Source: Parafrankia sp. EUN1f
GTDB taxonomy: Bacteria; Actinomycetota; Actinomycetes; Frankiales; Frankiaceae
DNA: 64,000 bases
Direction of reading: 5' to 3'
NCBI RefSeq assembly: GCF_000177675.1
Contig: NZ_ADGX01000004.1
Coordinates: 1-64,000 of the forward strand
Of this stretch, positions 7,614 through 57,777 are shown piece by piece. Made by a program: the position numbers and the translations under genes. The first letter of the stretch is position 1. The number at the start of each line of letters is the position of its first letter. The notes below the pieces were generated by a model. That model made no database searches, was not told the origin of the DNA, and was given only the letters and a program-made list of their open reading frames with translations.

Positions 7614-7636
7614 GACGCCCTCCCAGGATGTTCCTC

Positions 7637-9094: not shown

Positions 9095-9100
9095 AACGCG

Positions 9101-9137: not shown

Positions 9138-9198
9138 GCACTGTCCTGCCTTTGGCACTGCCCTGCTGCGAGTGGGTGTTACTCGACGTCCATCAGCG

Positions 9199-11655
9199 TT
9201 ACGGGACGTCCACCACGGGGCTGCCGGGGCGGCAGCGGTCGGGAAGCGGCTCGGAGCCACACCCTGTCAGGATCCGGATGATCTGTGGGTCGTGGTCGCT
9301 GGCCTGGTCGGAGAACTCGGCGTTGACGTGCACCACACCGTAGGAGTAGCCCTTGATGGTCGGGCTGATCAGGATGTGGTCCAGCGTCTGCGAGTTGCCG
9401 TCGAACACGTAGCTGTACCGCTCGTTCACGGGCAGGTCGTTGATCAGCGGCTTGAGCAGCGCACCGTTGTCGGTCAGCGTCGCCAGGGTCGGGCTGAACT
9501 GGTAGTCGTTGATGTCACCCAGCACGACCACGCGAGCGGCGTTGCCGCTCTTGGCGGCCAGATCGGCGACGAAGTTGCGGACCTCGGTCGCCTGGCTGGT
9601 CCGCTGGGCCTCGGAGCTGCGGACCGGCGGCTGCACCGCGGCGCTGAGCGGGTAGTCGCCGCCCTTGCTGTTGAAGTGGTTGGCGACGACGAACAGCTGC
9701 TTGTCCCCGTCGTACAGGAACTCGCCGACCAGGGGCTTGCGGCTGGTGCTCCAGGCGGAGCTGGTCGGGTTGATGCGGCCGGGCGAGGCCGACAGGTAGA
9801 CCTGGTTGCTGGTCGGGCGCACCTTGAGCACGCTCACGGCCGTGTTCGCGTCGCCGCCGGGGCGGTCGACGAAGGTCGTGCGGGCCGGGTTGAACAGGAA
9901 CACCTGGCGGATGTTGCCACCGGGGGCGCCGCCGTCCGTGCCGTCGTTCGGGTTGATCGAACGCCAGTCGTAGGTCGGGCCGCCGGCGGCCACGATCGCC
10001 GCGATGAACCTGGCGACGGTCTGGTCGGCGGCGACGACGCCGTCGTCGACCGTGCCGTTGTTGTCCTGGATCTCCTCCAGGGCGAGGATGTCGGGCTTGC
10101 CGAGGTTCACGACGACGGCCTCGGCCAGCCGCGCGAACTTGGCGTCGGAGTCACCGGCGGTGAGGTTCTCGACGTTGTAGGTGGCGATCGACAGGTCGCC
10201 GGTCTTCTTCGGCGGGGTGACCTTCTGCCGCTTGAGGCCGCCGTCGGTGATGGTGCCGAGGGTGGTGGTCTGGATGACGTACCCGCCGAACGACTGGTAG
10301 TCGACGACGCCGACCGAACCGGCCGCGAGGGTGGAGCCGACGTTCGCCGCGGGGGCGCCGTCCAGGGCCTGCAGCATCAGCCGGCCGCTGTTGGGGTCGT
10401 CGTAGGAGACGTACGCCGAACCGCCGCGCGGGGTCTGGTTCTGGGTCGGCTTCAGGGTGACCCACAGCTCGCCGAACTCGGTGTTCACCGGGCTGATGAG
10501 GCGGGTGTCCTGGGCGACGGTGACCCGCATGCCCTCGTGGACCTCCAGCCAGTCGAGCACGTAGGAGCTCGGCTCAAGCGGCTGGGCCTCGAGGGAGCCC
10601 GTCTTGGTGAAGGTGTCGGGGAAGCTGACGGGGGTCGGCGCGGGAAGCGCGTTGCCGCTGCTCAGCTTGCTGGTGGCGATCGGGCCGCCGAGTTCGGTGA
10701 GCGACTGCGCGCCGGCGGCGGGGCGGTACTCGGTGACCCGGCCTGTGGTCAGCACCGAGTCGCCGATGGCGACGGCGGGTGAGGTGCTGCCCGTGAAGAC
10801 GAAGATGCCTTCGCTGGTCAGCGGGTCGGCGTCGGCCGTCGGGTCCTGCAGCCAGTAGCCGCGGGAGCTGCCGGTGGTGCGGACGGCGGTCACGATGCCG
10901 GGCACGTTGGTGACGCTCTGGCCGACGATCGGGGAGATCCGGCCGCTGCCCTGGATGTCGTGGATCCGGGTGCTGCCGGGGGTCGGGCCGGTCGGGCCGC
11001 CGCCCGGGTCGTCGGTGGCGGTCACGGTGGTGCCGGCCGAGTTGGTGGCCTTCGGCACGCCCGAGGTGAAGTCGACCGAGTTGTTGTCGGTGTCGACCAG
11101 GGAGCCACTGCGGGCGCCCGCGGTGGTGTTGGTCAGCCCGGGCGCGGCGAGGGTCTCGACGTTGGCGGTGGCGCCGTAGCCGACGAGGTCCTTGACGTTC
11201 GGCGCGACGGCGCAGGAGATGCCGCAGCCGACCAGCGGGATGGTGTTCGTGACCAGGGCGACGACGCCGGACGTCGCCGACATCGGGACGCTGCCCGTCG
11301 CGTCGGGGGTCGGCAGGCTGAGCGTCCCGGCGGCGCCGGCGGCCTCCTGGACCAGATACCGGCCGCCGGCCGGGATCGAGCCGTGCAGGGCCGTCAGCTG
11401 GAAGACGGCACCCGCCGCCGAGGCGTACTGGACGGACCAGCCCTCGACGCTGATCGGGCTCGCCGTGAGGTTCGCCAGTTCGATGAAGTCGTTCTTGATG
11501 GTCGCGCCCGAGTTGCCGCCCCCGCCGTAGACGGCGGAGATGACGACGTCGGCCGAGAGCGCGGTCGCGGGAGTGGGAAGGGCCGTCAGGGTGGCCGCGA
11601 CCATAGCCGGCAGGCTCGCCGCCGTGATCAGGCGGCGTGCGCTGAGTTTTGCCAC
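9199..11655 (-). CDS. secreted nuclease with lamin-tail domain and endonuclease/exonuclease/phosphatase domain
   Basis: An 818-residue exported protein resembling ExeM/NucH. A Sec signal peptide with AxA-like end (TPATA) covers about residues 1-33. A lamin-tail domain follows (DFIELANLTASPISVEGWS, about 35-170), then an OB-like region around 230-430, then an EEP nuclease domain (about 490-790). EEP motifs seen are SIATYNVENL, LALEEIQDN, VVLGDINDYQ and SDHDPQI, supplying the metal and catalytic Asn, Glu, Asp and His residues. Such enzymes degrade extracellular DNA for phosphate or biofilm turnover. It appears to be transcribed alone. Confidence 0.88.
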   Translation of the reverse strand: MAKLSARRLITAASLPAMVAATLTALPTPATALSADVVISAVYGGGGNSGATIKNDFIELANLTASPISVEGWSVQYASAAGAVFQLTALHGSIPAGGRYLVQEAAGAAGTLSLPTPDATGSVPMSATSGVVALVTNTIPLVGCGISCAVAPNVKDLVGYGATANVETLAAPGLTNTTAGARSGSLVDTDNNSVDFTSGVPKATNSAGTTVTATDDPGGGPTGPTPGSTRIHDIQGSGRISPIVGQSVTNVPGIVTAVRTTGSSRGYWLQDPTADADPLTSEGIFVFTGSTSPAVAIGDSVLTTGRVTEYRPAAGAQSLTELGGPIATSKLSSGNALPAPTPVSFPDTFTKTGSLEAQPLEPSSYVLDWLEVHEGMRVTVAQDTRLISPVNTEFGELWVTLKPTQNQTPRGGSAYVSYDDPNSGRLMLQALDGAPAANVGSTLAAGSVGVVDYQSFGGYVIQTTTLGTITDGGLKRQKVTPPKKTGDLSIATYNVENLTAGDSDAKFARLAEAVVVNLGKPDILALEEIQDNNGTVDDGVVAADQTVARFIAAIVAAGGPTYDWRSINPNDGTDGGAPGGNIRQVFLFNPARTTFVDRPGGDANTAVSVLKVRPTSNQVYLSASPGRINPTSSAWSTSRKPLVGEFLYDGDKQLFVVANHFNSKGGDYPLSAAVQPPVRSSEAQRTSQATEVRNFVADLAAKSGNAARVVVLGDINDYQFSPTLATLTDNGALLKPLINDLPVNERYSYVFDGNSQTLDHILISPTIKGYSYGVVHVNAEFSDQASDHDPQIIRILTGCGSEPLPDRCRPGSPVVDVP

Positions 11656-11877
11656 AGGTGTTCTGCTCCTCAGGGAAGATTCTCCCCAGGAGCATGGTGG
11701 CCTTCGTGATCTGGCGGAAGTGCGGTTTTTGGTGAACTGCCGCGATCGTCCTAGATGTTCCCCTTTTCTTTCCGGAGCGTTTCGCTGCCGGTGTGGAATG
11801 GTGTCGGCCCGGTGGGGATGCCGGCGGTATCCGTGGGGCCCTCGACGGTGGGATTCCGCGTGCTCAGCTCCGGGTGC

Positions 11878-12555
11878 TCAGCCCCGGGTGCTCTGGCTTC
11901 GGGTGCTCTGGCTTCGGGTGCTCTGGCTCCGGGTTATCGAGGCCAGCCAGGCGGAGACGCCCATCGTGTCGAACGTGATCTCGAGGGTGGCCGGTTCCAC
12001 CGCGTCGACCTGCCAGCCGTCGGCGAAGCTGCTCCGGATCTCGTCCTGGCTGATTCGGCGGGGGCCGATGTCACCGGGGACCTGGTCGCTGAAGCACAGC
12101 ATGTAGTAGTGGCCACCAGGGTGGAGGACGGAGTGCAGGGCCCGGACGTAGGCCTCGCGGTCCTCGTCCGTCAGCACGTGGAACAGCCCGCAGTCGAGCA
12201 CCGTGTCGAACCGCTCCGGCAGGTCGGCCAGCCGCAGTGCGTTCTCGACCCGGAACCGGGCGCGCAGGCCCCGCTCGGCGGCCTTGGCCTTGGCCCGCTC
12301 GATCGCGAGCGCGGAGGTGTCGACGCCGACCACGTCGAGCCCGAGGCTGGCGGCGAGCAGGGCGTGCTCACCGGTGCCGCATCCGACGTCGAGGACTCGC
12401 CCGCGCAGCCGGCCGGCGTTCGCGAGCGCCTGGAAGGCGGCCTGGGGGCGGCCGATGTCCCACGGTGGGGTGCCCTGATAGAAGATGTCGAAGTCAGTGG
12501 GATGCCGTGGCCCGAGCGGTGGCAGGGCCCCGTCCGAACCTTCGAGGATGCTCAT
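11878..12555 (-). CDS. class I SAM-dependent methyltransferase
   Basis: A 225-residue protein with a Rossmann methyltransferase core: motif I VLDVGCGTGEHA near residue 54, acidic motif II VVGVDTS and motif post-I LDCGLFHVL. The opening TPPWDIGRPQ is common in thiopurine/small-molecule methyltransferase relatives. The C-terminus ends in a tandem RSQST repeat encoded by three 15-bp DNA repeats (11890-11935), which looks like a recent slippage extension beyond the fold. ATG at 12555 is preceded by GGAGGTCAGTG. The substrate cannot be told. Confidence 0.85.
   Translation of the reverse strand: MSILEGSDGALPPLGPRHPTDFDIFYQGTPPWDIGRPQAAFQALANAGRLRGRVLDVGCGTGEHALLAASLGLDVVGVDTSALAIERAKAKAAERGLRARFRVENALRLADLPERFDTVLDCGLFHVLTDEDREAYVRALHSVLHPGGHYYMLCFSDQVPGDIGPRRISQDEIRSSFADGWQVDAVEPATLEITFDTMGVSAWLASITRSQSTRSQSTRSQSTRG
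11890..11935. repeat. 15-bp tandem repeat CTCTGGCTTCGGGTG x3
   Basis: Three near-identical units of CTCTGGCTTCGGGTG lie at the 3' end of the methyltransferase gene and code for the RSQST tail. Similar shorter TGCTCAGCCCCGGGTGCTC units continue to the left. Copy number is likely to vary between strains. Confidence 0.75.
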
Positions 12556-30184: not shown

Positions 30185-30784
30185 ATGGACATTGAGCGGC
30201 GCATCATTGACGCGCACGTCGAGGTGCGGGCCGACCACGCCGGAAACAAGACGATCGAAGGCTACGCCTCCGTTTTCGATTCGCGGTCGCAGAATCTCGG
30301 CGGGTTCGTCGAGCGGGTCAGGCCGGGCGCCTTCGCGCAGAGCCTTGCCGATGGTGACGACGTCCGGGCCCTGATGAACCATGATTCGAATTTCGTGCTC
30401 GGCCGCAGAGCGTCCGGGACGCTGGAACTGGCGGAGGATTCGACCGGGCTGCACTACCGCATCACTCCGTCGAACGCGAGCTACGCAAGAGATCTTGTGA
30501 TCGCGATGGAACGCGGTGACGTGAGTCAGTCGAGCTTCGGATTCATCACGAATCCGGACGGCGACGAATGGGCCTACACGGAAGACCAGTTCCCGCTTCG
30601 GTCGCTGCTCTCCGTCCGCCTGGTCGACGTCTCGCCTGTCACTTTCCCGGCCTACCTCGACACGGAATCGAAGGTGGCCGTTCGCGCGATCGAGCGTGCA
30701 CAGGGAATGGTGGCGCCGGTCGTCGAGCCGGAAGACCCGAACGCGGCACTACGCCGCGCGATGTTCGGCCGCAAGTACCTCTGA
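30185..30784 (+). CDS. prohead protease (HK97 family)
   Basis: A 199-residue maturation protease starting MDIERRIIDAHVEVR. Catalytic-type motifs are GYASVFD, ALMNHDSNFVLGR (His) and GDVSQSSFGF (Ser), then VRLVDVSPVTFPAY. It cleaves the capsid delta domain and itself during head maturation. Start 30185 lies directly after the portal stop. Confidence 0.93.
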   Translation: MDIERRIIDAHVEVRADHAGNKTIEGYASVFDSRSQNLGGFVERVRPGAFAQSLADGDDVRALMNHDSNFVLGRRASGTLELAEDSTGLHYRITPSNASYARDLVIAMERGDVSQSSFGFITNPDGDEWAYTEDQFPLRSLLSVRLVDVSPVTFPAYLDTESKVAVRAIERAQGMVAPVVEPEDPNAALRRAMFGRKYL

Positions 30785-30811
30785 GCTTTCGCTCAAACAC
30801 CAAACAAACCA

Positions 30812-30834
30812 GGCGGACAGCGTCCGCCTTTTTT
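30812..30834 (+). terminator. intrinsic terminator between protease and capsid genes
   Basis: A perfect 7-bp stem GGCGGAC-AGC-GTCCGCC followed by six T residues. It interrupts the structural operon just before the capsid gene. Confidence 0.85.
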
Positions 30835-30863
30835 ATGCCCACGTTTGGGCGAAAGGGAGACGA

Positions 30864-32111
30864 ATGTCTCGCGAACTGATCAACGGCCTGATGACCCGCC
30901 GGGCGCAGGTGTGGGAGAGCGCAAAGGGCATCCTCGACGCCGCAGGCGACAAGGCCCTGAGTGGCGAGCAGCGCCAGGCCTTCGACCGGGCGAACGCGGA
31001 GCTTGACCAGCTCGACGCCGATATTCAGGGCTGGACCGAACGGGAGGCACGTTCCGCCCTGGTCGCCGATGCGGTGGCTGGCCTGGAACGCCAGGGCGTG
31101 ACCGTCGACCGCCCGGCATCCCCGCAGGCCGTCGAGGCGGACACCCTTCGGGCCTTCGGCGCCGGTGAGCGCCGCGCCGCCGAGTTCTCCATGCGGGAGC
31201 ACCGTGCGAACGAACTGTTGGTGGCCACCACCGGATCGAGCACCGGCGGGCAGACCGTCCCGACGTCGTTCGTGTCGAAGCTGATCGAATACATGACCGT
31301 CAACTCGGCTGTGCTCAAGGCCGGTCCGACGATCATCCGGACCGACAGCGGCGAGCCTCTCACCATGCCGCGGGTCTCGGCGGTCACGTCTGCCGCCGGC
31401 ATCATCGCGGAGGCGGGCGCGCTGTCGAACGCGCGACCGGCGTTCGATCAGGTGACCCTGAACAGTTGGAAGTACGGCTTCCTGCGGCAGCTCTCGCCGG
31501 AGCTGGTGACCGATACCGCCATCGACCTGATCGACTTCCTTGCCCGGGACGCGGGCCGCGCGCTGGGCAACGGTCTCGGCGCCCACCTGGTGACCGGGGA
31601 CGGTACCACCCAGCCGGAAGGCGTTCTGACCGCCTCGACCCTCGGCAAGACCGGCCCGACCGGGGCATCCGGTGGCGTTGGCGCGCAGAGCACCGCAGGC
31701 GCCGGATATGACGTCCTGATCGACCTCGAGTTTTCGATCATCGAGGCGTACCGCGCAAACGCGAAGTTCCTGATGCGTGACGCCACCCTCGCCGCCCTGC
31801 GGAAGGTGAAGAACGCTGACGGCGTTTACGCCTGGGCTCCGTCGGTTCAGGTGGGTCAGCCGAGCACGATTCTCGGATACCCCGTGCTGACCGACCCGAA
31901 CATGCCCGCCGTGGGTCTGGGTGCCAAGAGCATTCTCTTCGGTGACTTCTCGACCTTCGCCGTGCGTCTGGTCGGCCCGGTCCGCTATGAGCGGAGCGAC
32001 GATTTCGCATTCGCGAACGACCTGATCACTTACCGCGCCCTTCTGCGCGCGGACTCCGCTCAGCTCGACACCACCGGCGCCATCAAGCACTACATCGGCG
32101 GTGCTAGCTGA
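30864..32111 (+). CDS. major capsid protein (HK97 fold)
   Basis: A 415-residue capsid. Residues 1-100 are the alpha-helical scaffolding (delta) domain (SAKGILDAAGDKALSGEQRQAFDRANAELDQL), removed by the protease; cleavage is likely near residues 95-115. The HK97 core includes VNSAVLKAGPTIIRTDSGEPLTMPR, FLRQLSPELVTDTAIDLIDFLARDAGRALG and LGYPVLTDPNMPA. ATG 30864 follows AAAGGGAG. The upstream terminator suggests an independent promoter or read-through for capsid production. Confidence 0.95.
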   Translation: MSRELINGLMTRRAQVWESAKGILDAAGDKALSGEQRQAFDRANAELDQLDADIQGWTEREARSALVADAVAGLERQGVTVDRPASPQAVEADTLRAFGAGERRAAEFSMREHRANELLVATTGSSTGGQTVPTSFVSKLIEYMTVNSAVLKAGPTIIRTDSGEPLTMPRVSAVTSAAGIIAEAGALSNARPAFDQVTLNSWKYGFLRQLSPELVTDTAIDLIDFLARDAGRALGNGLGAHLVTGDGTTQPEGVLTASTLGKTGPTGASGGVGAQSTAGAGYDVLIDLEFSIIEAYRANAKFLMRDATLAALRKVKNADGVYAWAPSVQVGQPSTILGYPVLTDPNMPAVGLGAKSILFGDFSTFAVRLVGPVRYERSDDFAFANDLITYRALLRADSAQLDTTGAIKHYIGGAS

Positions 32112-32428: not shown

Positions 32429-32812
32429 GTGGGTGCTCTTTCTGGCTCCGAAGCGAACAGCGTTCTGAACGCGACCACCACGGTTGCTACCTACACGGCG
32501 CCGGTCGGCCCGTTGAAGGCACGCCTGATGACCGCGAACGGTTCCGCCTCTGCCGCCGGCACTGAGGTAACCGGCGGTTCCTACACGGCGCAGACGATCG
32601 CGTTCGGGGCCGCCTCCGGCGGTGTTGCGTCGAACTCGGTAATAGTCGATTTCGCAAACATGCCGCTATGCACTGTGGTCGGCGTCGAGATCTGGGATTC
32701 GGCGGGCACGCCGCGGCGTCTTTGGTGGGGTGCGCTGAGCGCCTCCAAGTCGGTTGGTTCCGGCGACACATTCCGTTTCCAGGCCGGTTCGGTCAGCGTA
32801 TCTCTGCCGTAG
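32429..32812 (+). CDS. head decoration or minor head protein
   Basis: A 127-residue beta-rich protein (NATTTVATYTAPVGPLKARLMTANGSASAAGTEVTGG...VVGVEIWDSAGTPRRLWWGAL) related in style to small structural proteins annotated in mycobacteriophages and Rhodococcus phages. GTG 32429 has a GGGGG upstream. It sits directly after the small head protein and before the 812-residue virion protein. Confidence 0.65.
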   Translation: MGALSGSEANSVLNATTTVATYTAPVGPLKARLMTANGSASAAGTEVTGGSYTAQTIAFGAASGGVASNSVIVDFANMPLCTVVGVEIWDSAGTPRRLWWGALSASKSVGSGDTFRFQAGSVSVSLP

Positions 32813-32821: not shown

Positions 32822-35260
32822 GTGAATACCCTACAGCGGAAGTCTTTTGCCACCACGACCGCGGCCACTACTTTCACGGTGACGCTTGACCAGCCTTGCG
32901 CGGCCGGCTCGACGCTGGTGATTGCCACCGGCGGCCCTGCTGTGGTGACCGCGCGGGTTGGGTCGGCCGCAGGGCCGACATTCACGAAGCGGACGCAGTC
33001 ACTCAACAACAACGAGATGACCGTGTCCGACTATGCCGGCACAGCCGGAGGCGAGACGGTTGTTCACGTCACCCTGTCAGGCTCCGCCCGAATGTCGGGC
33101 GAGATCTACGAATGCGTTGGGCTGGGCGCCTTCCAGTCGGGAGCCACCTACTTTTCCGCGACGGCAGGCCGGTACCCGGCAACCTCGACGCTCACCCTGG
33201 CAGGGCCCTGTGTCGTCTTCTCAGCGCTGCTGACCACCGACGCCACGGCTAACAGGCCCTGGCGTGGCCTGGAACCCGTCGGGCGCCTATACAACAACGT
33301 CCTGTACAACACCAACCTTGCGGTTGCCTACGGCGTTTCCGACGTGGCGGCAGGCACGTACACGGTTGGCTCGACGAAAATCAACGCGAGTTCGTACACG
33401 CAGATCGTTGCCGTTGCCTACAGCGACACGACGGGCGTCCCGTCGAATACGCCCTACGCGAACGCGACCGTTGCCGAGAATTCGAGGCCTCCCCGCTACT
33501 ACGGGGATTGGATCGGCGCGACCACCCACGCTAATATCGCGGGCTTCGCGACAGCTCAGAGCGTCCTGCCCGGCGGCACGGTCTATTTCAAGGTCGACTC
33601 TGACAACGTCGGGTTCAACGTCGAGGTCAACCGGCTCGGCTACTACGGCAACCCGGTGCCTGGTGTGCCCGATCTCGAAGACCACGGGGCGCACCTTATG
33701 GCGACGGTCGCGGGTACGCCTGCGGTCCAGCCGACACCGAACTTCACCGCCTCGACGTTCACAACGGACTGTTCGAATTGGTCTGTGACCGCGCAGTGGT
33801 CGGTACCGGCGACGGCCAGACCGGGCGTCTACCTGGTGAACTTCCGCCGGACCGACAACTCCGCCTACGTCTCTCAGGGCATGTTTATCGTTCGCTCTCC
33901 GGCCGGTAGCACAAACCGCCTGGCGGTTGTCGTCGATGACAACACATGCCAGGCATACAACAATTTCCAGGACAGGGCGAACCCGACGGCAGGGTATTCC
34001 CTGTACGGCCAGGGCGGCACCTCCGGTCAGCGTGCCTACGCGGTCAGTTTCGAGCGTCCCTACGCGACACAGAACAACCTTGCCCGGACGTGGATTCTTG
34101 ACGACGAATACAGCATTATCAACTTCCTAGAACGCAACGGGGTTGATCTCGCCTACTACTCGTCGGCTGACCTCGATGCAGATCAGAACCTGCTGATCTC
34201 TCACCGTGCGGCGCTGATGCCTGGGCATCAGGAATACGTGTCCCAAGGAATGTGGGATGCGTGGGAGGCGGCGAAGGCCGCAGGTGTTCACATGGTGTGG
34301 CTGAGCGCGAACAGTGCTCTGTGGCATGTGCGTTTCGACGCGACCCGCCGGAAGATGACCTGTTACAAGGATTCGTTCGGGGATGTGTCCGACCCGTCCG
34401 GTTGGACGGGCACATGGCGGGATTCGAGGGCAGGGAACACGGCGACTCGCCGGTCAGAATCCGGGCTGCATGGGCTCTGGTTCAAGGTCAACGGCGTCCG
34501 GTTGGACCAGGTGACGGTGCCGGACACGTTCAAAGCCTCGCCGTTCTGGCGGAGCACCACGGTAGCGTCGCTGGGCTCCGGGGCGTCGAAGACGCTGCCG
34601 GCGAACGGCCTCGGCTACGAATGGGATTTCTACCGGTCGGCCGACCCTGCCGCACCGACGAACAAGGTTTTCCTGTCGTCAACCACCATCGCCGTCACGG
34701 GCATGGTGGCAAATGACGACGGCTGGCTTTACACCCTGTCCGACACGCTGACGCACAATTTCATCCTGTGGCGCGCAGCCTCCGGCGCCCTGGTGTTCAA
34801 CGCGGGCACGAACAGGTTCGGTCACGGGCTCTCGCAGTTCACCGAAGGCAACTACCTGTCGAACAAGCCCCTCGACACGGACGTTCAACAGGCGCTGATC
34901 AACCTCCTGTGCGACATGGGGGTGACGGCGGAAACCCGAATGTCGGTGCTGGTTGATCCTGCGCCTGCACAGGCGGCCACGGCCTACGGGCTGACCGTCT
35001 CGACGGTCACGGGTGACACAGCGATGACCGCGGCCTCGACGGTCACGGCGTCCGGCCGTCAGCTTGCGATCGGTTCGGCGTCGATCGCTCAGGCGTCCGC
35101 CGACGCGGCTACCGGGCTCGTGCTGGCCATAGGCGGGGGCGACCTGTCGCAGGTCGCTGCCCTGATCGCGTCAGGCGAAGTGATCCAGATTGCGCCGGCG
35201 GCATGGCGCTACTTCGAGGGGGCGGCAGGCATCAACAGCTTCGAGGGGGGTGTTTCGTGA
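32822..35260 (+). CDS. large virion-region protein with N,N-dimethylformamidase beta-like domain
   Basis: The 812-residue protein has an N-terminal beta-domain (about 1-210), a central part (about 215-705) and a C-terminal repetitive tail. The central part follows the conserved course of the large-subunit C-terminal domain of N,N-dimethylformamidase: VAENSRP, VEVNRLGYYG, ARPGVYLVNF, TCQAYNNF, RAYAVSFERPY, FLERNGVDLAYYS, MPGHQEYVS and LSANSALWHVR. It lacks a signal peptide and is placed between head and connector genes, so it is probably a virion component, perhaps a head or neck fibre. Whether the metal site is intact cannot be judged here. GTG 32822. Confidence 0.75.
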   Translation: MNTLQRKSFATTTAATTFTVTLDQPCAAGSTLVIATGGPAVVTARVGSAAGPTFTKRTQSLNNNEMTVSDYAGTAGGETVVHVTLSGSARMSGEIYECVGLGAFQSGATYFSATAGRYPATSTLTLAGPCVVFSALLTTDATANRPWRGLEPVGRLYNNVLYNTNLAVAYGVSDVAAGTYTVGSTKINASSYTQIVAVAYSDTTGVPSNTPYANATVAENSRPPRYYGDWIGATTHANIAGFATAQSVLPGGTVYFKVDSDNVGFNVEVNRLGYYGNPVPGVPDLEDHGAHLMATVAGTPAVQPTPNFTASTFTTDCSNWSVTAQWSVPATARPGVYLVNFRRTDNSAYVSQGMFIVRSPAGSTNRLAVVVDDNTCQAYNNFQDRANPTAGYSLYGQGGTSGQRAYAVSFERPYATQNNLARTWILDDEYSIINFLERNGVDLAYYSSADLDADQNLLISHRAALMPGHQEYVSQGMWDAWEAAKAAGVHMVWLSANSALWHVRFDATRRKMTCYKDSFGDVSDPSGWTGTWRDSRAGNTATRRSESGLHGLWFKVNGVRLDQVTVPDTFKASPFWRSTTVASLGSGASKTLPANGLGYEWDFYRSADPAAPTNKVFLSSTTIAVTGMVANDDGWLYTLSDTLTHNFILWRAASGALVFNAGTNRFGHGLSQFTEGNYLSNKPLDTDVQQALINLLCDMGVTAETRMSVLVDPAPAQAATAYGLTVSTVTGDTAMTAASTVTASGRQLAIGSASIAQASADAATGLVLAIGGGDLSQVAALIASGEVIQIAPAAWRYFEGAAGINSFEGGVS

Positions 35261-36099
35261 TCCGCACAGCCGTCGGTGCTGTCACCACGCATCAGGTGAC
35301 CTTCTGGGGCGACGAAGACCCTGTAGACCCTGACGGGAACACGGCCACCCTCACCATCACGGACGTCGACGGGGCCGCCTCGACGTCCACCGGTATAAGA
35401 GCCTCGACGGGCGTCTACACGGCGCTACTGCCCACGTCGGTCGATCCCACGATCTACCGCCTGCGCTGGTCGGGCACGTTCACGGGCATCGAGCAGGTCA
35501 TCACGGATGCCGTCGAGGTGACCGGCGCGCGCCTGTTCACCCTGGCAGACCTCCGGGCGACGGATAGCGCCTTCGGCGACCGGGACCGGTACCCGACGGC
35601 ACTGCTCGAAACGGTGCGCCGGGAGACGGAAGACGAGGCTGAGCGGATCATGTCCCGGTCGTTCATCCCCCGGTACCGGGAGATCGTGACGACCGGTGGG
35701 CAGATTACTCAGCTGCTGTGGTTGGACTGCCTGCCCGTGCAGCGCATCCTGTCGGCAACGGTCGACGGCACCCCCGTGGACGTCCAGACAATTGCGGCTG
35801 ACGCCCTAGGCTATGTGGCCAACTACTCGGGTTGGAGCACGGAGTTTCTCGGCAACACGATCCGGCTCGTCTACGGGGAGACGGACGTCCCGAGTGACGT
35901 CCGCAGAGCTGCACTGATCAGAGCCCGGACCCGTCTCCTCGACTTCAACAGCGGCATCCCCGATCGGGCCACGTCGTTTTCTGCCGTCGAGGGTGGAACC
36001 TACAGCCTGGCCACGCCAGGCCGCGCCGGTTTCGAGACCGGCGTCCCGGAGGTTGACGCCGTCTACAAACGGCACAGCTACACCATCGGGATTTTCTGA
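35257..36099 (+). CDS. head-tail connector (adaptor) with N-terminal beta domain
   Basis: A 280-residue protein. The first ~95 residues form an Ig-like beta domain (VTFWGDEDPVDPDGNTATLTITDVDG...YRLRWSGTF). The rest is the gp6/gp15-type adaptor (FTLADLRATDSAFGDRDRYPTALLETVRRETEDEAERIMSRSF...VRRAALIRARTRLLD). GTG 35257 overlaps the previous stop (GTGA), which removes 18 codons from the longest frame. It docks below the portal. Confidence 0.8.
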   Translation: MIRTAVGAVTTHQVTFWGDEDPVDPDGNTATLTITDVDGAASTSTGIRASTGVYTALLPTSVDPTIYRLRWSGTFTGIEQVITDAVEVTGARLFTLADLRATDSAFGDRDRYPTALLETVRRETEDEAERIMSRSFIPRYREIVTTGGQITQLLWLDCLPVQRILSATVDGTPVDVQTIAADALGYVANYSGWSTEFLGNTIRLVYGETDVPSDVRRAALIRARTRLLDFNSGIPDRATSFSAVEGGTYSLATPGRAGFETGVPEVDAVYKRHSYTIGIF

Positions 36100-36557: not shown

Positions 36558-37553
36558 ATGTCGAATCTTTTTGCCCAGCTGGGCGTTAAGAACGAATCCA
36601 CCTATGGCGCCGCGGTTGCAGTTGACCGCTTTTTCGAGTTCGGTTCCGAGAGTGTCATCGGGGACTATCAGCGTATCGAGTCGGAGGCCATCCGGGCCGG
36701 CTCACGGGTGCTGCCTGCCGATCGGTGGGCGGTCAACCCGAAGGGTGCCGCCGGTGACCTGTCGTTAGAGGTGACAGGCCGGGGGTTCGGCTTCTGGCTG
36801 GCTCACATGCTCGGCACCGTCACCACGGAGGCGGACACGCCCGGGGCAGGGAAGAACACCCATACCGGCACCGTCGGCTCCCTCGACGGCCGGTCCTTCA
36901 CCCTCCAGGTCGGGCGCCCGGACGTCGGGAACGTGGTCAGGCCCTACACCTACGCGGGCGGCAAGGTCGCGTCGTTCGAGATCTCCAACTCGGTTGACGG
37001 AATCTTGATGTTGAAGCTGTCCACGGACTTCGCTACCGAGACGATGCCTGTCGCCTCTCCGGCGGGCGTCTACGCCCTACAGACGGTCGCCTATCCGGCC
37101 GCGCCGAACCAGCTTCTGACCTTCGTCGGCGGGACGGTAACCGTCGCGTCCGTCGAGGTCGTGGCGTCGGAGGTCACTTTCTCGGTTGACTCCGGCCTTC
37201 GGCTGGACCGGTACGGCATCCGGTCTGCGGCCGGCAAGAGGGAGCCCCGGGAGAACGCCAGGCGCAGCATCGAGTGGGGGCTGACGGCAGAGTTTGAGGG
37301 GCTGACGCAGGTCTCGCGGGTCGCATCGGCGACCAGGTCCGGGGCCACCGCGTCGATCGTCGCCGTGTGGCAGACCCCGGACGCTGACGCCACGCTCACC
37401 GTGACGATCCCCGCGGCACGGTTCGACTCCCCATCTGCGGCGAACGTCGAGGGCGCCGAGACGTCCGATCTGAGCCTGTCCGGCATTGGCCTCGACAACG
37501 GCACCGACAGTCCCATCTCGATCAAGTATGTCACTGCCGACGCGACGCCCTGA
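36558..37553 (+). CDS. major tail tube protein
   Basis: A 331-residue protein with the TP901-1/MTP-like pattern: NLFAQLGVKNESTYGAAVAVDRFFEF at the start, then GFGFWLAHMLG, SFTLQVGR and YAGGKVASFEISNSVDGILMLKLS. A second beta region (about 180-320) resembles an added Ig-like domain. The gene has the strongest-looking Shine-Dalgarno in the region (GCGAAGGG), as expected of an abundant protein. Confidence 0.85.
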   Translation: MSNLFAQLGVKNESTYGAAVAVDRFFEFGSESVIGDYQRIESEAIRAGSRVLPADRWAVNPKGAAGDLSLEVTGRGFGFWLAHMLGTVTTEADTPGAGKNTHTGTVGSLDGRSFTLQVGRPDVGNVVRPYTYAGGKVASFEISNSVDGILMLKLSTDFATETMPVASPAGVYALQTVAYPAAPNQLLTFVGGTVTVASVEVVASEVTFSVDSGLRLDRYGIRSAAGKREPRENARRSIEWGLTAEFEGLTQVSRVASATRSGATASIVAVWQTPDADATLTVTIPAARFDSPSAANVEGAETSDLSLSGIGLDNGTDSPISIKYVTADATP

Positions 37554-51722: not shown

Positions 51723-53828
51723 TCAGATCGGGCAGGCGCCGGAGGCGCAATTCTCATCGAAACCGTCATCCACAGCCTTGAACGTGGCAGCCTCGTACTC
51801 TTCCGCCGTGATCCGTTCGTAGGGCGCCTGCGCCCGCGAACCGTCGAGCATGACCGTTGTGCCCTTCAAACTCCGAAGGGCAGGCGCCATGGTGTCGATG
51901 AATTCGCGGACACGGTCCGGGGCTGGCAGTACGTTGGAATGTCCAAGGGCAAGCGCGATGCCCTGCTCGCGGTCCGGCTCGACGTTAACCGTGAAACTCA
52001 CTGCGTTATCGGCGAAACATTCCTGAACCATGGCCTGCACGGAGAGCATGTCATGCAGGCTGATTTCGTTCGCCGCCTCGACGATGGACGGGTCACCGCC
52101 TGCGGCGATGACTTCGGCGACCAGGGGGTCACGGGTTGGGATGGAAACGACCAGCGTTCGGGGGCTGTAGATGCACGGCTCGACGGTGTGGCCGGCGTCG
52201 TGCAGCGCCTCGACTTCCGCAGCCTCCCGGGGGTCGTCGAGGCCGTAGCGGATGCGCCTGACGAATTCCCGGGCGTAGATGGGATGCCACCCTTCGCTGC
52301 GTCCGGGCAGTTTCGCCACGGTTCCCGTGGGTGCCACGGTGGTGCATTTGACGGGCTCCGGGATTCGCAGGGCGAAGGCGTATTCACGTGCCTCGGCCCG
52401 TACCGTGTCCTGCATTGCCCGAAGGAAGTGCCGTGTCGGGTAGTCCTGCCAGGATTTCGAGTAGCGAATGCCTCGCTTGACCAACCAGCCCTGGGCGCCG
52501 AAGTGCCCGACACCGATTCGCCGGTTACGTGCCACCACTTCGGCCTGCGCCTTCGAGGTGATGTCACCGAACGTCGCCCTGATCAGGAATCGGGTCATGA
52601 GCCGGTGCGCTTCGAGGCACGCCGCGTGGTCGTAGAACCCCTGTTTGTCGACGAACGCGTCAAGGTTGACATGGCCCAAATTGCAGTTTTCCCACGCTTC
52701 GAGCGCGATTTCCCCGCAAGGGTTGGTGGCGATCACTTCGCCTACCTCGCCATGGGCGGACAGGGAGGAATTCCAGAGCCCCGGCTCACCGTTGGTCAGC
52801 ATGCCGGTAACGACCTGTTCCAGGACGGCCATAGCTTCGATCCGTCGAGGGTGGAAGTCGTCATTCACCGCAGCCACAAAATCGTCGTCGATCTCGACGG
52901 ATATATTCGTGGTCCAGTGCGCCCCCGGATCGCTCTTGCAGGCGATGAACTCGCGAATGTGTGGGTCTTGCCAGTGAACGATGGACATGCGCGCGGAGCG
53001 CCGGACGTTGCCGCTCACAACACATTCGGCTATCGCCTGGTCAATCTCCATCGCGTCCAGAGGTTCAATGGCGCCGAAGCCCTCCACGGCGCAGCCCGAC
53101 AAGATTTCGGCCGTGCGTAGAAGCATTCGCGCCAGCGGTGCCGGCCCGGAGGCCGTGCCACCGAACGCCTTAATGGGCGCCCCGCGGAAGCGGATGCGGG
53201 AGACGTCCACGACGATGGGACCGGCCTGGCCCCCGGCAAGGTGGTGGTTTAGCTCAGCTCGGCGGAGGACGAGCGCTAGCGCGTCCGCCCATCCCTCCCG
53301 GGAGTCCTCCACGTCGACATCTGCCACGGCGTCCGCCGTGAAGACCGTAGACAGAAGGCCACCGTCTCGCAGCTCCGCATAGTCAGGATGCGCGTCGTTG
53401 CACACAACGTGAACCTCAACGGGCGACACGATGCTGTATCGGCAGGTAAAGCGGCTGGAGTAGTTTGCCCCTACGCCCCCGCCTTCAGCCAAGCGAAGAT
53501 ACGTAAACACGAAATGCTCGGCGAGATCGCTGACCCATCCGGACACATGGCAGTTGAAAAGATACTGCCGGCCCGGAACCCCGGACATTTTCAGATGCCG
53601 ACCTGCCGGAAGAATCTTGAAGGTGTAGATCAGGCTGTGGATCCTATCCGCCTCTTGCCGGATCTCCCGGGGCCACTTCTCAGGCTCGCCGTAGACGAGC
53701 ATCAGGTTTCCCGTTACGACGCGGGAAACGGTGGCCTCCCAGTCTTCATGTCCGCCGGTCGGCAACGGTCGGCTGTAGGTTCTCCTGTAGACCTCCGGCC
53801 CGGTGGGCCCCCATTTCGGGTCGCTCAA
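51723..53828 (-). CDS. nrdJ: class II (B12-dependent) ribonucleoside-triphosphate reductase
   Basis: A 701-residue monomeric RNR. The catalytic set is visible: FNCHVSG (first active-site Cys), NPCGEIALE (thiyl Cys and Glu) and NLGHVNLDAF. ENCNLGH and the redox tail CASGACPI provide further conserved Cys, the latter probably the shuttle pair. Uses adenosylcobalamin, so it works with or without oxygen. It starts ATG/GTG at 53828 and overlaps the sigma-like gene. Similar reductases are found in cluster A mycobacteriophages. Confidence 0.93.
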   Translation of the reverse strand: MSDPKWGPTGPEVYRRTYSRPLPTGGHEDWEATVSRVVTGNLMLVYGEPEKWPREIRQEADRIHSLIYTFKILPAGRHLKMSGVPGRQYLFNCHVSGWVSDLAEHFVFTYLRLAEGGGVGANYSSRFTCRYSIVSPVEVHVVCNDAHPDYAELRDGGLLSTVFTADAVADVDVEDSREGWADALALVLRRAELNHHLAGGQAGPIVVDVSRIRFRGAPIKAFGGTASGPAPLARMLLRTAEILSGCAVEGFGAIEPLDAMEIDQAIAECVVSGNVRRSARMSIVHWQDPHIREFIACKSDPGAHWTTNISVEIDDDFVAAVNDDFHPRRIEAMAVLEQVVTGMLTNGEPGLWNSSLSAHGEVGEVIATNPCGEIALEAWENCNLGHVNLDAFVDKQGFYDHAACLEAHRLMTRFLIRATFGDITSKAQAEVVARNRRIGVGHFGAQGWLVKRGIRYSKSWQDYPTRHFLRAMQDTVRAEAREYAFALRIPEPVKCTTVAPTGTVAKLPGRSEGWHPIYAREFVRRIRYGLDDPREAAEVEALHDAGHTVEPCIYSPRTLVVSIPTRDPLVAEVIAAGGDPSIVEAANEISLHDMLSVQAMVQECFADNAVSFTVNVEPDREQGIALALGHSNVLPAPDRVREFIDTMAPALRSLKGTTVMLDGSRAQAPYERITAEEYEAATFKAVDDGFDENCASGACPI

Positions 53829-54469
53829 ATCTGGCTCCTGTTCAGCAGTTCGGTGAGCGCGTCAACCGCGCGCTGATGCCTTCGCTGTGCTGCCTTGTCG
53901 CCGAATTCCCCGCCTTCGAGGTGTCGGGCGACCAGGGCCCGACGGTTGGAGTCGGACAGGCGCGGCCAGACACGGGCGATGTCGAGGACACCTGCCAGGG
54001 CTTCGCCCTGCCCGTTGCCGGGGATGACCGACTCGCCCCCTTCGGGGATCGGCGCGTCTGACCACCTGGTGACGTCTTCGAAGAACACCGGCAGCAACGC
54101 CCGGACGTGATCAGGGAGGTACACCCACCGGTCGGTTCTCATGAGACGCTGCCGCCGTTCGCCGGAGCAGTACCGTTCGGCAGCTCGACGCATGATGACG
54201 TTGATCAGGTTGGTGTCGTCCCAATCGATCCGGTCGCGGTGCTCCCACAGGTAGGCCATGACGGTCTGCGCCACGTCGTCCGCGCTGACCACGCCGGGGT
54301 TCGCCCTGGCGAACACGACACCTAGGGCGGCAGCCTTCGGCCCGTAGTAGGCAGTCCATTCGTCCGCCTCGACGGGCGGCGTGTAGTTCAGGCGGCGCAA
54401 CAGGTTCTCTTCCGTGGCCGATGACCAGGTGCGGGCGTCGAGGTACTCCGGCGAGTCGAGGGTGATCAC
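53825..54469 (-). CDS. sigma-factor-like protein
   Basis: A 214-residue protein. Residues 55-105 resemble sigma region 2 (VSADDVAQTVMAYLWEHRDRIDWDDTNLINVIMRRAAERYCSGERRQR); residues 160-210 resemble region 4 (IARVWPRLSDSNRRALVARHLEGGEFGDKAAQRRHQRAVDALTELL). GTG 54469 overlaps the previous stop. Could act as a phage sigma factor for late genes or as a helix-turn-helix regulator. No match is strong enough to name a target promoter. Confidence 0.65.
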   Translation of the reverse strand: MITLDSPEYLDARTWSSATEENLLRRLNYTPPVEADEWTAYYGPKAAALGVVFARANPGVVSADDVAQTVMAYLWEHRDRIDWDDTNLINVIMRRAAERYCSGERRQRLMRTDRWVYLPDHVRALLPVFFEDVTRWSDAPIPEGGESVIPGNGQGEALAGVLDIARVWPRLSDSNRRALVARHLEGGEFGDKAAQRRHQRAVDALTELLNRSQI

Positions 54470-54633
54470 GCGCGCCTTCCTGCTCGACGCGCGGCGCGCT
54501 GCGCCTTCCCCTTCGCCCTGCGTCGGGCGCGTTCCTCCGGGCTGACCGTGCCCGTGTAAACGGGCCTGCCCTGAATCAGACGGAGGAAGAAATAGGCGGA
54601 CCACCGTTTCCGCTCAGCTAGCGTGACCGTCAT
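54466..54633 (-). CDS. very basic small protein
   Basis: A 55-residue ORF (MTVTLAERKRWSAYFFLRLIQGRPVYTGTVSPEERARRRAKGKAQ...) with a C-terminal arginine/lysine/alanine run. ATG 54633; TGA 54466-54468 overlaps the GTG of the sigma-like gene, so the two are coupled. It overlaps the phosphoesterase stop by 20 bases. It may bind nucleic acid. Confidence 0.6.
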   Translation of the reverse strand: MTVTLAERKRWSAYFFLRLIQGRPVYTGTVSPEERARRRAKGKAQRAARRAGRRA

Positions 54634-55432
54634 TTTCAACCCCAATCAGTCGGTCGAACTCGGAAAAGTCAGGCGCCGGATATTCGACGCCCTGAACCAG
54701 GATTGAGCCGTCAGGGTGGATCGGATATACTTCCGGCGCTGACCGGCCGGTGTCGTCGAGGTGCAGCAAGCCGAAGCCGAGTTGCCAGTTGGCGCTACCA
54801 AATCCGACGTAACTGGCCTTACTCAGGTCGGACAGGTGGCCGCATTCCATGCCAGTCAGGGACTGCTGACGGTCCCGGTAGCCCCGGGACTCGGTGACGA
54901 CCGCCAGGCGGTGTGTGTGGCCCTGCACGACCGATGCGCCGAACTGGCGAACCATCTTCAAAGCCGACCCGCCCCCGTAGGCGGCTATCTTGTCGCCGTG
55001 GATCGCCACCCAACCGTCACCGAGCCTGTAGGGCTGATGCCGGTAGGAGATTTCGAGGTCTTCGAAGTTCAGCAGGGCTTCGAGCTGCAAGGAGCGGAGT
55101 TCCCGAAGGGCGGGCGCGTACTGGGCCAGGTAGCGGCGTATCCGCGCTTCGTGGTTGCCCTCGACGAAATCGATCGGCCCACCATAACCCGCGCGGATGT
55201 TTTCGAGGATTTTTACCCCGGTGTCACAGTCTGCCTGTAGGTCTGTCTGGTATTCCTCTGCCAGGCCCCGGCTCCAACGGGCCGGGCCTTTCATGTCGAG
55301 AAAATCGCCGAGAATCAGAAGTCGATCGGGGTTGAACTCTGCCGCGAACGCGGTCAGGTTCTCGACAGCGGCTGTGTGCTGGTCAGGGACGTGTGTGTCA
55401 GGCCAGCACAGGATGGTGCGCCACCTAGGCAA
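54614..55432 (-). CDS. calcineurin-like metallophosphoesterase
   Basis: A 272-residue phosphoesterase. Metal motifs appear in order: PDTHVPD (D-x-H), LILGDFLDM (GD), EGNHEARI (GNHE), HGDKIAAYG and QGHTHRLAV (GHTH). These residues form the two-metal site. TTG 55432 overlaps the RNA ligase stop. The substrate is unknown; pairing with an RNA ligase suggests 2',3'-cyclic phosphate or 3'-phosphate processing. Confidence 0.9.
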   Translation of the reverse strand: MPRWRTILCWPDTHVPDQHTAAVENLTAFAAEFNPDRLLILGDFLDMKGPARWSRGLAEEYQTDLQADCDTGVKILENIRAGYGGPIDFVEGNHEARIRRYLAQYAPALRELRSLQLEALLNFEDLEISYRHQPYRLGDGWVAIHGDKIAAYGGGSALKMVRQFGASVVQGHTHRLAVVTESRGYRDRQQSLTGMECGHLSDLSKASYVGFGSANWQLGFGLLHLDDTGRSAPEVYPIHPDGSILVQGVEYPAPDFSEFDRLIGVENDGHAS

Positions 55433-56066
55433 TCTGGCGAATTACCTTCGGCTGACTGTCGTTCTCGATCAGCACCTTGAAAAGGTGGTGACTCGCAGCG
55501 TGGTAGACGATGATTCCCTCGGGCCGGTTGTATCCGGGGACTGCCCGGCTACCCGTGGATTCCAGGTCCCACAGGGCGTCGTCGATGACGCCGGTGTCGA
55601 AGGTGCCGCCGCTGTCGAGCACGGGCACCAGGCCGACGCAGGCGGGCAGCGTCTCGCCGGACCACCGGCCGACGTTGAACAGGGAGAATCGGCGTTCGTC
55701 GAGGCCGTAGCCTCGCTGGATGCCCTTGCCCCACCATTCGCCGTAGTGGTTGCCCGATCCCAGCTTGGACAGCTCGAAGGCGTTGGCCAGGGCCCACGCG
55801 GCGAACCCGTAGTTGTCGTTCTCCGGAGTGATCCAGCGCTTCCGCGAGCCTGCCCGCACTTCCCAGAGAACCCCGTCACGGGAAGTGAACGCCGAGTTGG
55901 TCACCGTCTCCCAATGCGTGCGTCCCTCGTCTTCGGGCTCGGATGCGCCCATGGCGCAGATACTGACCAGGGCGTTGGTGCCGTCAATCTTCTCCGTGAT
56001 CACCATCTCGCGGAAAAGGCGGGGGGTCTTCGGCCAGGCCGGAAAGGAATCGGGGCCACTGCTCAC
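55425..56066 (-). CDS. RNA ligase (T4 Rnl2-like nucleotidyltransferase)
   Basis: A 213-residue adenylating ligase. Motif I is TEKIDGTNAL (Lys of KxDG), motif III VLWEVRAGSRKRW or GEWWGKGI, motif IV PEGIIVYH, and motif V HHLFKVL with the final Lys. The nucleotidyltransferase domain alone accounts for the length. It joins RNA 5'-phosphate to 3'-OH ends. It precedes the phosphoesterase and a phage tRNA is present elsewhere, so RNA repair against host nucleases is a reasonable role. Confidence 0.88.
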   Translation of the reverse strand: MSSGPDSFPAWPKTPRLFREMVITEKIDGTNALVSICAMGASEPEDEGRTHWETVTNSAFTSRDGVLWEVRAGSRKRWITPENDNYGFAAWALANAFELSKLGSGNHYGEWWGKGIQRGYGLDERRFSLFNVGRWSGETLPACVGLVPVLDSGGTFDTGVIDDALWDLESTGSRAVPGYNRPEGIIVYHAASHHLFKVLIENDSQPKVIRQIA

Positions 56067-56193
56067 GTACTGCTCTCCTTCGCTTTTGGTCTTGCGCGTC
56101 GAGGTAGGTTCCTGCTATCGCGATTCCCCCGAAGAACGCGATCATCACTGCTGAGACGATGAGAAAGGCGGTCACGGCTCGACGCCTGGCCAC
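55984..56193 (-). CDS. small membrane protein
   Basis: A 69-residue protein. Basic start MARRRAV, then TAFLIVSAVMIAFFGGIAIAGTY as a single membrane helix, then a charged tail. GTG 56193 follows GGGGAG. It overlaps the RNA ligase gene by 83 bases in another frame, and the upstream 55-residue gene by 22 bases. Role unknown; superinfection exclusion proteins of phages are often of this kind. Confidence 0.65.
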   Translation of the reverse strand: MARRRAVTAFLIVSAVMIAFFGGIAIAGTYLDAQDQKRRRAVREQWPRFLSGLAEDPPPFPRDGDHGED

Positions 56194-56339
56194 TCCCCGG
56201 ACAAGACCAGGGCGAGGATCGCGCCGTACCCTGCGATGTCCTGCGCCGTGTCGTAAAGGCTCTCGAAGGCAGGCTCACCAGGCCGTGTGATCAGGTTCGC
56301 TGCCCGGTGCAGCTCCGCCGTGGCGGCGTCAGATTCCAA
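56172..56339 (-). CDS. small acidic protein
   Basis: A 55-residue ORF starting at TTG 56339 (MESDAATAELHRAANLITRPGEPAFESLYDTAQDIAGYG...). TTG overlaps the primase stop (ATTGGAATCTGA). It ends GEWPGVEP. The helical plan and position between primase and membrane protein are clear, but no family is recognised. Confidence 0.6.
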   Translation of the reverse strand: MESDAATAELHRAANLITRPGEPAFESLYDTAQDIAGYGAILALVLSGEWPGVEP

Positions 56340-56994
56340 TGCCTAGCCTTTCGCAGAGTGCCTCGCCGCCTTCGCGGAGCACGAACGTTGTCGGATCGTC
56401 CTTCTCTTCCGGGAGGCGGACCACGACCAGGCCGCTGATTGCCTCCGTGAGGGTTTTCACCAGTTTCTCGCCTGGCCGTTCACCGCTTCGCGGGTTGACC
56501 GGGTCGTGGTCGGGAATCAGGTAGACGTCGAGGCCTGCGAAGCATCGGGCCATGTACGCCTTCCAGGTATCGACCCCGGGAATCCCAACGGCTGGGATGC
56601 CGGTTTCCTGCTGTGTAACAATGGCGTCTAGCTCGCCTTCGACGATCGCCACCGTGCCAGCGGCGTAGGCCAGGGTTCCGGCGTTGTAAAGCCGCGGTGC
56701 CGCCCCGGGCAGGCCCCGGTACTTCGGCGTGTCTGTGGCACTCAGGCCAGGCATCGCCCGGAACTTGAAACCAACAACACCGGTTGGTGTCACGTAGGGG
56801 ATTGCCAGGCGGCCCCGGACGTCCTCATGACCCGTCAAGGGCTCGGCGACGAATCCCAGCCTGAAAAATTGTGCGCTGTCCCCGGTGATCCCCCGGAGCG
56901 TCAAGTATTCGTGAACCAGGGGTTCTGCCCGTAGCGCCTCCTGGTAGGTCTGGCACGCCTGCTCCAACGACCTCCTGTATGAAGCGTCTGGCAC
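56329..56994 (-). CDS. primase TOPRIM-containing subunit
   Basis: A 221-residue protein. QFFRLGFVAEPLTG is the primase entry segment; VAIVEGELDAIVTQQ gives the TOPRIM Glu and LIPDHDPVN the DxD-like motif. GTG 56994 would start inside the last third of the preceding zinc-finger gene, 170 bases before its stop. AGGGAGGG lies 13 bases upstream. Together with that gene it makes a DnaG-type primase from two overlapping frames. Confidence 0.85.
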   Translation of the reverse strand: MPDASYRRSLEQACQTYQEALRAEPLVHEYLTLRGITGDSAQFFRLGFVAEPLTGHEDVRGRLAIPYVTPTGVVGFKFRAMPGLSATDTPKYRGLPGAAPRLYNAGTLAYAAGTVAIVEGELDAIVTQQETGIPAVGIPGVDTWKAYMARCFAGLDVYLIPDHDPVNPRSGERPGEKLVKTLTEAISGLVVVRLPEEKDDPTTFVLREGGEALCERLGIGI

Positions 56995-57211
56995 TAGGGA
57001 AATCGAGTCCCTCCCTCCACATCACCAGGTTGTAGGCGTCGCCCTTCACACATCCTGAGTGGCATTTGAATGCGTTCTCGGTGAGGTTGACGGAGGCGGA
57101 GGGTAGACGATCCTCATGGAACGGGCATTTCATTTTCGCCCACCCCCCGCGCTCCGGTACTGTCCCGTCGTAAAATTCGAGGACTGCCCGAATGTCGGGC
57201 TTATCGCTCAC
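56825..57211 (-). CDS. primase zinc-finger (CHC2) subunit
   Basis: A 128-residue protein with the CHC2 zinc finger MKCPFHEDRLPSASVNLTENAFKCHSGC and the following GDAYNLVMWREGLDFPSARRFIQE. After residue ~85 the sequence loses primase character (PGGATGRTPGSRILDAPG), while the +1 frame holds the true continuation (GTG 56994 onward). GTG 57211 overlaps the upstream stop. A +1 frameshift would give a single chain; otherwise the two gene products act together. Confidence 0.85.
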   Translation of the reverse strand: MSDKPDIRAVLEFYDGTVPERGGWAKMKCPFHEDRLPSASVNLTENAFKCHSGCVKGDAYNLVMWREGLDFPSARRFIQEVVGAGVPDLPGGATGRTPGSRILDAPGDHRGQRTIFQAGIRRRALDGS

Positions 57212-57390
57212 CGCTCAATGTGCAGCTCGAAGTCGTGATACTCGCTGGCGGCAGCCTGGCGGAAGCGGAGGACCGCGCCGGGGGGCGCCTCGTCGACAAG
57301 TCGCTTCAGTTCGTCACGAGAGATACTGTCCCCGATGTCGAACAGAATTCCCTCGACGGGCGGAGGCGACTGATAGGAGAGTCGAGCCAT
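57208..57390 (-). CDS. small hypothetical protein
   Basis: A 60-residue ORF (MARLSYQSPPPVEGILFDIGDSISRDELKRLVDEAPPGAVLRFRQAAASEYHDFELHIER). Has an EGILFDIGDSISRDEL stretch and ends DFELHIER. ATG 57390 with AAGGAAA upstream. No known family. Located directly before the primase. Confidence 0.7.
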   Translation of the reverse strand: MARLSYQSPPPVEGILFDIGDSISRDELKRLVDEAPPGAVLRFRQAAASEYHDFELHIER

Positions 57391-57405
57391 GACGGTTTCC
57401 TTCCC

Positions 57406-57777
57406 TTAGCTGACGTGGTAGCCGCGTAGATCTCTCACGATCTCGCGGAATTGGTCGAGTTCCATCACTACATAGGCTTGTTCGACGGTCTTCCGTCGAG
57501 CCTTGACGACGGCAGCGTAATAGCGCGTATTAGCGTTCTCGCGCTCCCTCTTGGCCTCCGCCATATAACCGGCAAGCCTGATCTTCTCTTCGTCTTTGCA
57601 TTCGATGACGAAACCGGTAACGCCGCGAATGTCACCCTGATCGAGGCGCCCATGCACATCCCCGTTGCGTTCGATGTCCTCCGGCCTGGCAGCCCCGAAG
57701 TCCCGGAAGTTCTCTCGCAGGTAGTCCCGGACCGCGGACTCCCATCGGGTGCCGCGAATCTTGCTCGGGTGGCTCAC
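57406..57777 (-). CDS. PD-(D/E)xK nuclease, Holliday-junction-resolvase-like
   Basis: A 123-residue protein: KIRGTRWESAVRDYLRENF, RNGDVHGRLDQGDIRGVTGFVIECKDEEKI and AEAKRERENANTRYYAAVVKARRK. The D.....D.......ECK order is the PD-(D/E)xK motif, and GDIHG/ECK is typical of archaeal-type Hjc and VRR-type resolvases. GTG 57777 overlaps the previous stop. Phage enzymes of this kind resolve recombination intermediates for packaging. Confidence 0.8.
   Translation of the reverse strand: MSHPSKIRGTRWESAVRDYLRENFRDFGAARPEDIERNGDVHGRLDQGDIRGVTGFVIECKDEEKIRLAGYMAEAKRERENANTRYYAAVVKARRKTVEQAYVVMELDQFREIVRDLRGYHVS

Follow-up and report, generated by a model that had tools for sequence, protein, structure and literature searches.

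A dimethylformamidase-superfamily domain encoded among the particle genes of a Parafrankia prophage, a candidate virion-displayed amidohydrolase

INTRODUCTION

In the Paracoccus N,N-dimethylformamidase (DMFase), iron is bound by Y399, Y440, and E521, residues H519, N547, and E657 matter in catalysis, and activity requires the small subunit (PMC7686228). The characterized members of the enzyme family use DMF and N-acetyl-(R)-beta-phenylalanine as substrates (PDB titles). Among phages, carbohydrate-binding modules (CBMs) are carried on the neck passage structure and the major tail protein of the lactococcal 936 phages (PMC6669499), and gp41 of phage Aristophanes is a tailspike polysaccharide deacetylase (PMC8471582). 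No paper linking dimethylformamidase to phages was found in a literature search.

Here, a stretch of 64,000 nucleotides from Parafrankia sp. EUN1f (contig NZ_ADGX01000004.1, positions 1 to 64,000), referred to as the window, was analyzed for a prophage gene of this superfamily. The genome carrying the prophage comprises 9.35 Mb in 396 contigs, and IMG/VR contains identical DNA as a viral contig.

RESULTS

Family, domain layout, and predicted fold

The open reading frame (ORF) at 32822-35260 on the plus strand starts with GTG and encodes 812 amino acids (aa) without interruption. Its product matched PF20254 (DMFA2_C; N,N-dimethylformamidase beta subunit-like, C-terminal) over aa 267-671, covering positions 2-369 of the 374 in the Pfam model, which bears out the dimethylformamidase-family domain proposed in a preliminary description of this DNA. 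Because the match reached 237.4 bits against a curated cut-off of 27 bits (E 4.3e-70), a chance or shadow ORF was ruled out. The layout of the gene is as follows.

32822..35260, plus strand: DMFA2_C protein, 812 aa, without signal peptide (ORF translation, Pfam, hydropathy)
32822..33466, plus strand: N-terminal beta-rich domain, aa 1-215 (sequence comparison and low-confidence model)
33467..34996, plus strand: predicted catalytic core (Ig-like plus alpha/beta/alpha), aa 216-725, counterpart of DMFase domains I and III (predicted structure)
33620..34834, plus strand: PF20254 DMFA2_C match, aa 267-671 (Pfam profile)
34997..35257, plus strand: C-terminal tail, aa 726-812, low-confidence model (predicted structure, relative search)

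The AlphaFold2 model, built from an alignment of 33 sequences, had a confident core at aa 215-725 (mostly pLDDT 80-98) and weak ends. In a Foldseek search, the only PDB matches of the predicted core below 1e-3 were N-acetyl-(R)-beta-phenylalanine acylase, the best one (E 3e-20), and dimethylformamidase. VIA aligned aa 236-724 of the model with these two enzymes at Z 30-31 over 411-430 residues (rmsd 2.8-3.3), and the next-best entry scored Z 14.6. The predicted core is thus folded like domains I and III of DMFase, and the unrelated fold that could have overturned the earlier proposal did not appear. The pentraxin domain II of DMFase (residues 74-337, inserted in domain I) was absent, with about 38 profile positions between the aligned blocks versus about 292 residues in DMFase. 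Since this domain is missing, the protein is, judged by sequence, a member of the PF20254 superfamily and not assigned as a dimethylformamidase. A search of the viral structure library gave no match below 1e-3, which does not amount to proof of absence.

The additions on both sides of the family domain, also described earlier, correspond to aa 1-215, beta-rich in a low-confidence model, and aa 726-812. For the tail no relatives were found, and it is possibly an attachment segment. The N-terminal domain recurred in a second prophage of the same genome and, more distantly, in viral contigs L055 and L056; among 394 genomes searched from the class it was found only in the genome's own two prophages (0 of the 393 others), and it had no match in GenBank phages. 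Its weak all-beta model had no PDB match below 1e-3, and the ORF had no PHROG match of its own. The reported lack of a signal peptide held as well: no hydrophobic signal segment was present, the maximum 15-residue hydropathy being 1.48 at residue 32, compared to 2.72 in secreted host homologues.

Position in the late operon

The late genes run in the order terminase (27133), portal (28928), S78 protease (30185), HK97 capsid (30696), a 103-aa ORF, phrog_240/Gp80 head protein, the 812-aa ORF, phrog_442 head-tail adaptor, and tail tube. The structural-operon setting given in the preliminary description, a DMFA2_C gene between a head protein and a connector gene, was therefore recovered with profile-based names for both neighbors.

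30696..32111, plus strand: HK97-type major capsid protein (Pfam/PHROG profiles)
32429..32812, plus strand: head protein, PF23140 Gp80 / phrog_240 (Pfam/PHROG profiles)
35257..36099, plus strand: head-tail adaptor (phrog_442) with N-terminal extension; GTGA overlap, Shine-Dalgarno (SD)-like GAGGGGGG upstream
36558..37553, plus strand: tail tube protein, PF18906, phrog_290 (Pfam/PHROG profiles)

The adaptor gene most likely starts at GTG 35257, not at ATG 35203 of the mechanical ORF listing, and this GTG and the TGA that ends the DMFA2_C gene overlap as GTGA. Because of the overlap and the GAGGGGGG motif upstream of it, the two genes look translationally coupled. A programmed frameshift from the ORF into the adaptor, whose frames differ by -1, was considered and dropped, as the overlap and the SD-like motif amount to ordinary coupling.

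Two further observations concern the window. Antisense to the capsid gene lies a 483-aa open frame (30639-32090, minus strand), most likely a shadow ORF of high-GC DNA. Several minus-strand genes at 53825-57777 match viral contig L058, itself a carrier of DMFA2_C, and by sequence the window phage and the L058 phage have genes in common outside the particle module.

DMFA2_C in other viral contigs

Profile-guided scans of IMG/VR gave 15 distinct viral contigs with DMFA2_C, both prophages of the genome counted. The second, unrelated prophage, on contig C231, encodes a 768-aa homologue (L014, 10199-12505) with 32% identity to the 812-aa protein over 771 columns, the N-terminal domain included. The capsid of that prophage falls in different PHROGs (267 and 283), and the DMFA2_C gene again lies between head and fibre proteins and a head-tail adaptor.

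Two of the 15 contigs carry adaptor fusions and one a tail tube fusion. In L055 and L056, the DMFA2_C protein goes on with fn3 and then with a domain of the head-tail adaptor (phrog_541, aa 834-950, and phrog_442, aa 816-1000, respectively). The gene order of L056 is that of the window (protease, capsid, small genes, DMFA2_C protein, phrog_22863); its fused adaptor domain and the window adaptor have phrog_442 in common but no direct BLASTP similarity. From these two fusions we infer that in the window the protein, there a separate one, sits beside the adaptor. In L060, a 2277-aa protein (5613-12446) has a tail-tube domain at its start (PF18906 E 5e-17, phrog_290 E 8e-33), followed by BACON, DMFA2_C, and four DUF4082 domains. 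If full-length at every subunit, this protein would decorate the tail.

Most other viral copies are fused to or adjoin fibre-type Ig, PKD, fn3, or collagen domains. The DMFA2_C gene directly follows fn3 or collagen-like fibre genes in L058, L062, and L064, and in L061, L148, L154, L156, and L157 repeat, PKD, fn3, or DUF4082-like parts are attached to the domain. Directly upstream of the DMFA2_C fibre gene in L148 is a 508-aa protein (5683-7209) with an apparent internal signal-like stretch and no PHROG match. The L059 protein (3254-4846) has a Tat-like N-terminus and, on this sequence feature, is perhaps secreted and not virion-borne. The DMFA2_C genes of L015 and L017 were rejected as phage copies, both being bacterial. 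Four different tblastn queries gave no match among 50,697 GenBank phages; a terminase query used as control retrieved 2240 records.

The location of the window gene among particle genes and the covalent links to adaptor (L055, L056) and tail tube (L060) in relatives fit a neck or tail accessory module, and display on the virion is supported because DMFA2_C is repeatedly joined to outward-facing particle parts.

Conservation of the iron site and catalytic residues

The preliminary description left the metal-binding residues to be checked. Profile alignments with the Paracoccus DMFase placed all six site residues on the 812-aa protein: the 2-Tyr-1-Glu iron ligands of the superfamily would be Y379, Y395, and E471, and H469, N497, and E600 are the equivalents of the catalytic His519, Asn547, and Glu657. 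Codon assignments rest on this alignment and PMC7686228.

33956..33958, plus strand: codon Y379, DMFase Fe ligand Y399
34004..34006, plus strand: codon Y395, DMFase Fe ligand Y440
34226..34228, plus strand: codon H469, DMFase H519 (catalysis)
34232..34234, plus strand: codon E471, DMFase Fe ligand E521
34310..34312, plus strand: codon N497, DMFase N547 (oxyanion)
34619..34621, plus strand: codon E600, DMFase E657 (proposed base)

Across 103 aligned matches, the six residues were invariant in 15/15 viral sequences and kept in 86-87 of the 88 bacterial ones, the remainder being gaps only. Among the viral copies, overall identity was 27-42%, and merely 26 of 422 well-filled columns were invariant. 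Because the putative Fe(III) site and His469, Asn497, and Glu600 are retained, hydrolysis of an amide is the most likely activity of the domain.

The invariance of the six residues against this background is the main reason for preferring an enzyme to a scaffold or adhesin. A passive glycan- or surface-binding decoration, in which the fold was kept as an adhesin in the manner of the 936 phage CBMs, is the strongest competitor and deserves perhaps one chance in five: CBMs occupy the equal positions in those phages (PMC6669499), DMFA2_C occurs together with display domains of the Ig, PKD, fn3, and BACON types, and the metal site could have been conserved for binding instead of hydrolysis. Yet with sequences this divergent, some loss of catalytic residues would be expected in an adhesin, and every viral copy has all of them. 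Of the functions offered earlier (fibre scaffold, glycan-binding head fibre, or true amidohydrolase), the last is thus favored; the adaptor fusions in two related phages and the coupling to the adaptor gene point to a neck protein more than to a head fibre.

Bacterial relatives and a possible substrate

The closest chromosomal relatives in Frankiaceae are secreted DMFA2_C + DUF4082 + Big_5 proteins, and their genes neighbor those for glycosyltransferases, DegT aminotransferase, Gfo/Idh oxidoreductase, and epimerase. Of 53 windows of about 13 kb around bacterial DMFA2_C genes, 22 contained a homologue of these polysaccharide and amino-sugar genes (DegT in 15, Gfo/Idh in 12), compared with 0 of 20 controls (Fisher p 3e-4). 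The controls came from few genomes of other Frankiaceae or class-mates, and the test loci span a broader range of taxa. The commonest neighbor families of the bacterial genes were hexapeptide transferases and family-2 glycosyltransferases. Among loci L066-L145 (e.g., L091, L092, L095, and L124), secreted DMFA2_C often lies beside DegT, Gfo/Idh, and hexapeptide transferase genes.

Pathways for N-acylated amino sugars use the combination of aminotransferase, oxidoreductase, and hexapeptide acyltransferase genes. As the neighbor genes fit such pathways, an amidohydrolase acting on N-acyl groups is a natural guess; that polysaccharide N-acyl groups are the substrate is speculative, with the odds against it.

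A virion enzyme with another target, such as peptide-linked or small envelope amides or a self-assembly step, is somewhat less probable than the adhesin. It has in its favor that no characterized member of the family uses a polysaccharide; the polysaccharide and amino-sugar genes adjoining the bacterial homologues and the outward-pointing placement on neck, tail tube, and fibres argue for a surface glycan instead.

Origin of the viral copies

A tree was built from 100 domain sequences, and in it 82 bacterial DUF4082-type rows formed one clade with support 99 that excluded every viral row. The bacterial rows had been picked by similarity, and because of long branches the branching order of the viral rows is uncertain. 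A single origin of the viral copies may still apply. Recent capture from the Frankia host copy is unlikely, because that copy falls within the bacterial clade from which all viral copies are absent.

Host-like genes are often carried by phages, and a host-derived cargo gene (moron), set in the structural operon by chance and not a part of the particle, would agree with the further DMFA2_C genes of the host beyond the window prophage and with the Tat-like signal of L059. Such a gene is improbable here, given the adaptor and tail-tube fusions in relatives, the equal slot in two unrelated prophages, the missing signal sequence of the 812-aa protein, the restriction of its N-terminal domain to these prophages among the 394 genomes searched, and the position of the viral copies outside the 82-row clade. 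A true dimethylformamidase letting the lysogen use DMF would share the superfamily and active-site residues but is very improbable, as the roughly 260-residue pentraxin domain of the large subunit is missing, the gene lies away from metabolic genes, and relatives are fused to adaptors.

DISCUSSION

The reading that we favor, with a probability of about 0.55, is that a temperate tailed phage displays an Fe amidohydrolase on its virions, at the neck. The 812-aa protein would be a particle protein at the head-tail interface that displays its DMFase-superfamily domain on the virion, with the beta domain at its N terminus and the tail at its C terminus anchoring or spacing the enzyme domain beside the adaptor ring. 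A mononuclear Fe(III) site (Tyr379, Tyr395, and Glu471) together with His469, Asn497, and Glu600 would hydrolyse amide bonds, and during adsorption amide-linked acyl groups or related amides of the host surface polysaccharide may be cut, a step modeled on tailspike deacetylases acting on ester-linked groups. We infer incorporation into the virion, the neck position in the window phage, metal content, and activity.

More tentatively, and at somewhat below even odds, DMFase-superfamily Fe(III) amidohydrolases on neck, tail tube, or fibres may form a new class of virion enzymes that remove N-acyl groups from amino-sugar surface polysaccharides, in actinobacterial and other environmental phages. 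If so, they would do for amides what the known tailspike O-deacetylases do for esters. The sequences suggest that a metalloenzyme family known from solvent degradation is carried by virus particles, its active site intact, in several structural settings that are independent of one another. If active, these proteins would bring new chemistry to the virion-borne enzymes for passing bacterial surface glycans, and they point to a testable substrate class for a large uncharacterized family of secreted bacterial proteins.

Comparison with known systems

With the Paracoccus DMFase large subunit (PDB 6lvb; PMC7686228), the phage protein shares the Ig-like domain I and alpha/beta/alpha domain III (Z 30-31) and the conserved Tyr, Tyr, and Glu ligands and catalytic His, Asn, and Glu; it differs in lacking pentraxin domain II, in its N-terminal beta domain and C-terminal tail, and in being encoded in a phage late operon. 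N-acetyl-(R)-beta-phenylalanine acylase (PDB 8huy, 8i59, and 8i5a), an amide hydrolase of equal fold, gave the top Foldseek and VIA matches (Z 31), but it is a metabolic enzyme with about 23% identity in the structural alignment. The secreted actinobacterial DMFA2_C + DUF4082 + Big_5 proteins (host copy G000:C251) have an equal active site and 35-39% identity in the shared region; in contrast to the phage protein, they carry a signal peptide, lie in polysaccharide gene clusters, have no phage domain, and form a separate clade.

The 936 phages follow the equal architectural idea with other domains. In known phage accessory modules, host-interacting domains likewise sit at the neck and tail tube, and these are BppA-like CBMs, beta-helices, or esterase-type CBMs, whereas the window phage has a DMFase-type metalloenzyme domain. 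Although its ester chemistry, tailspike position, and family are different, Aristophanes gp41 may be the closest working analogy, as a virion enzyme that takes acyl groups off host polysaccharide.
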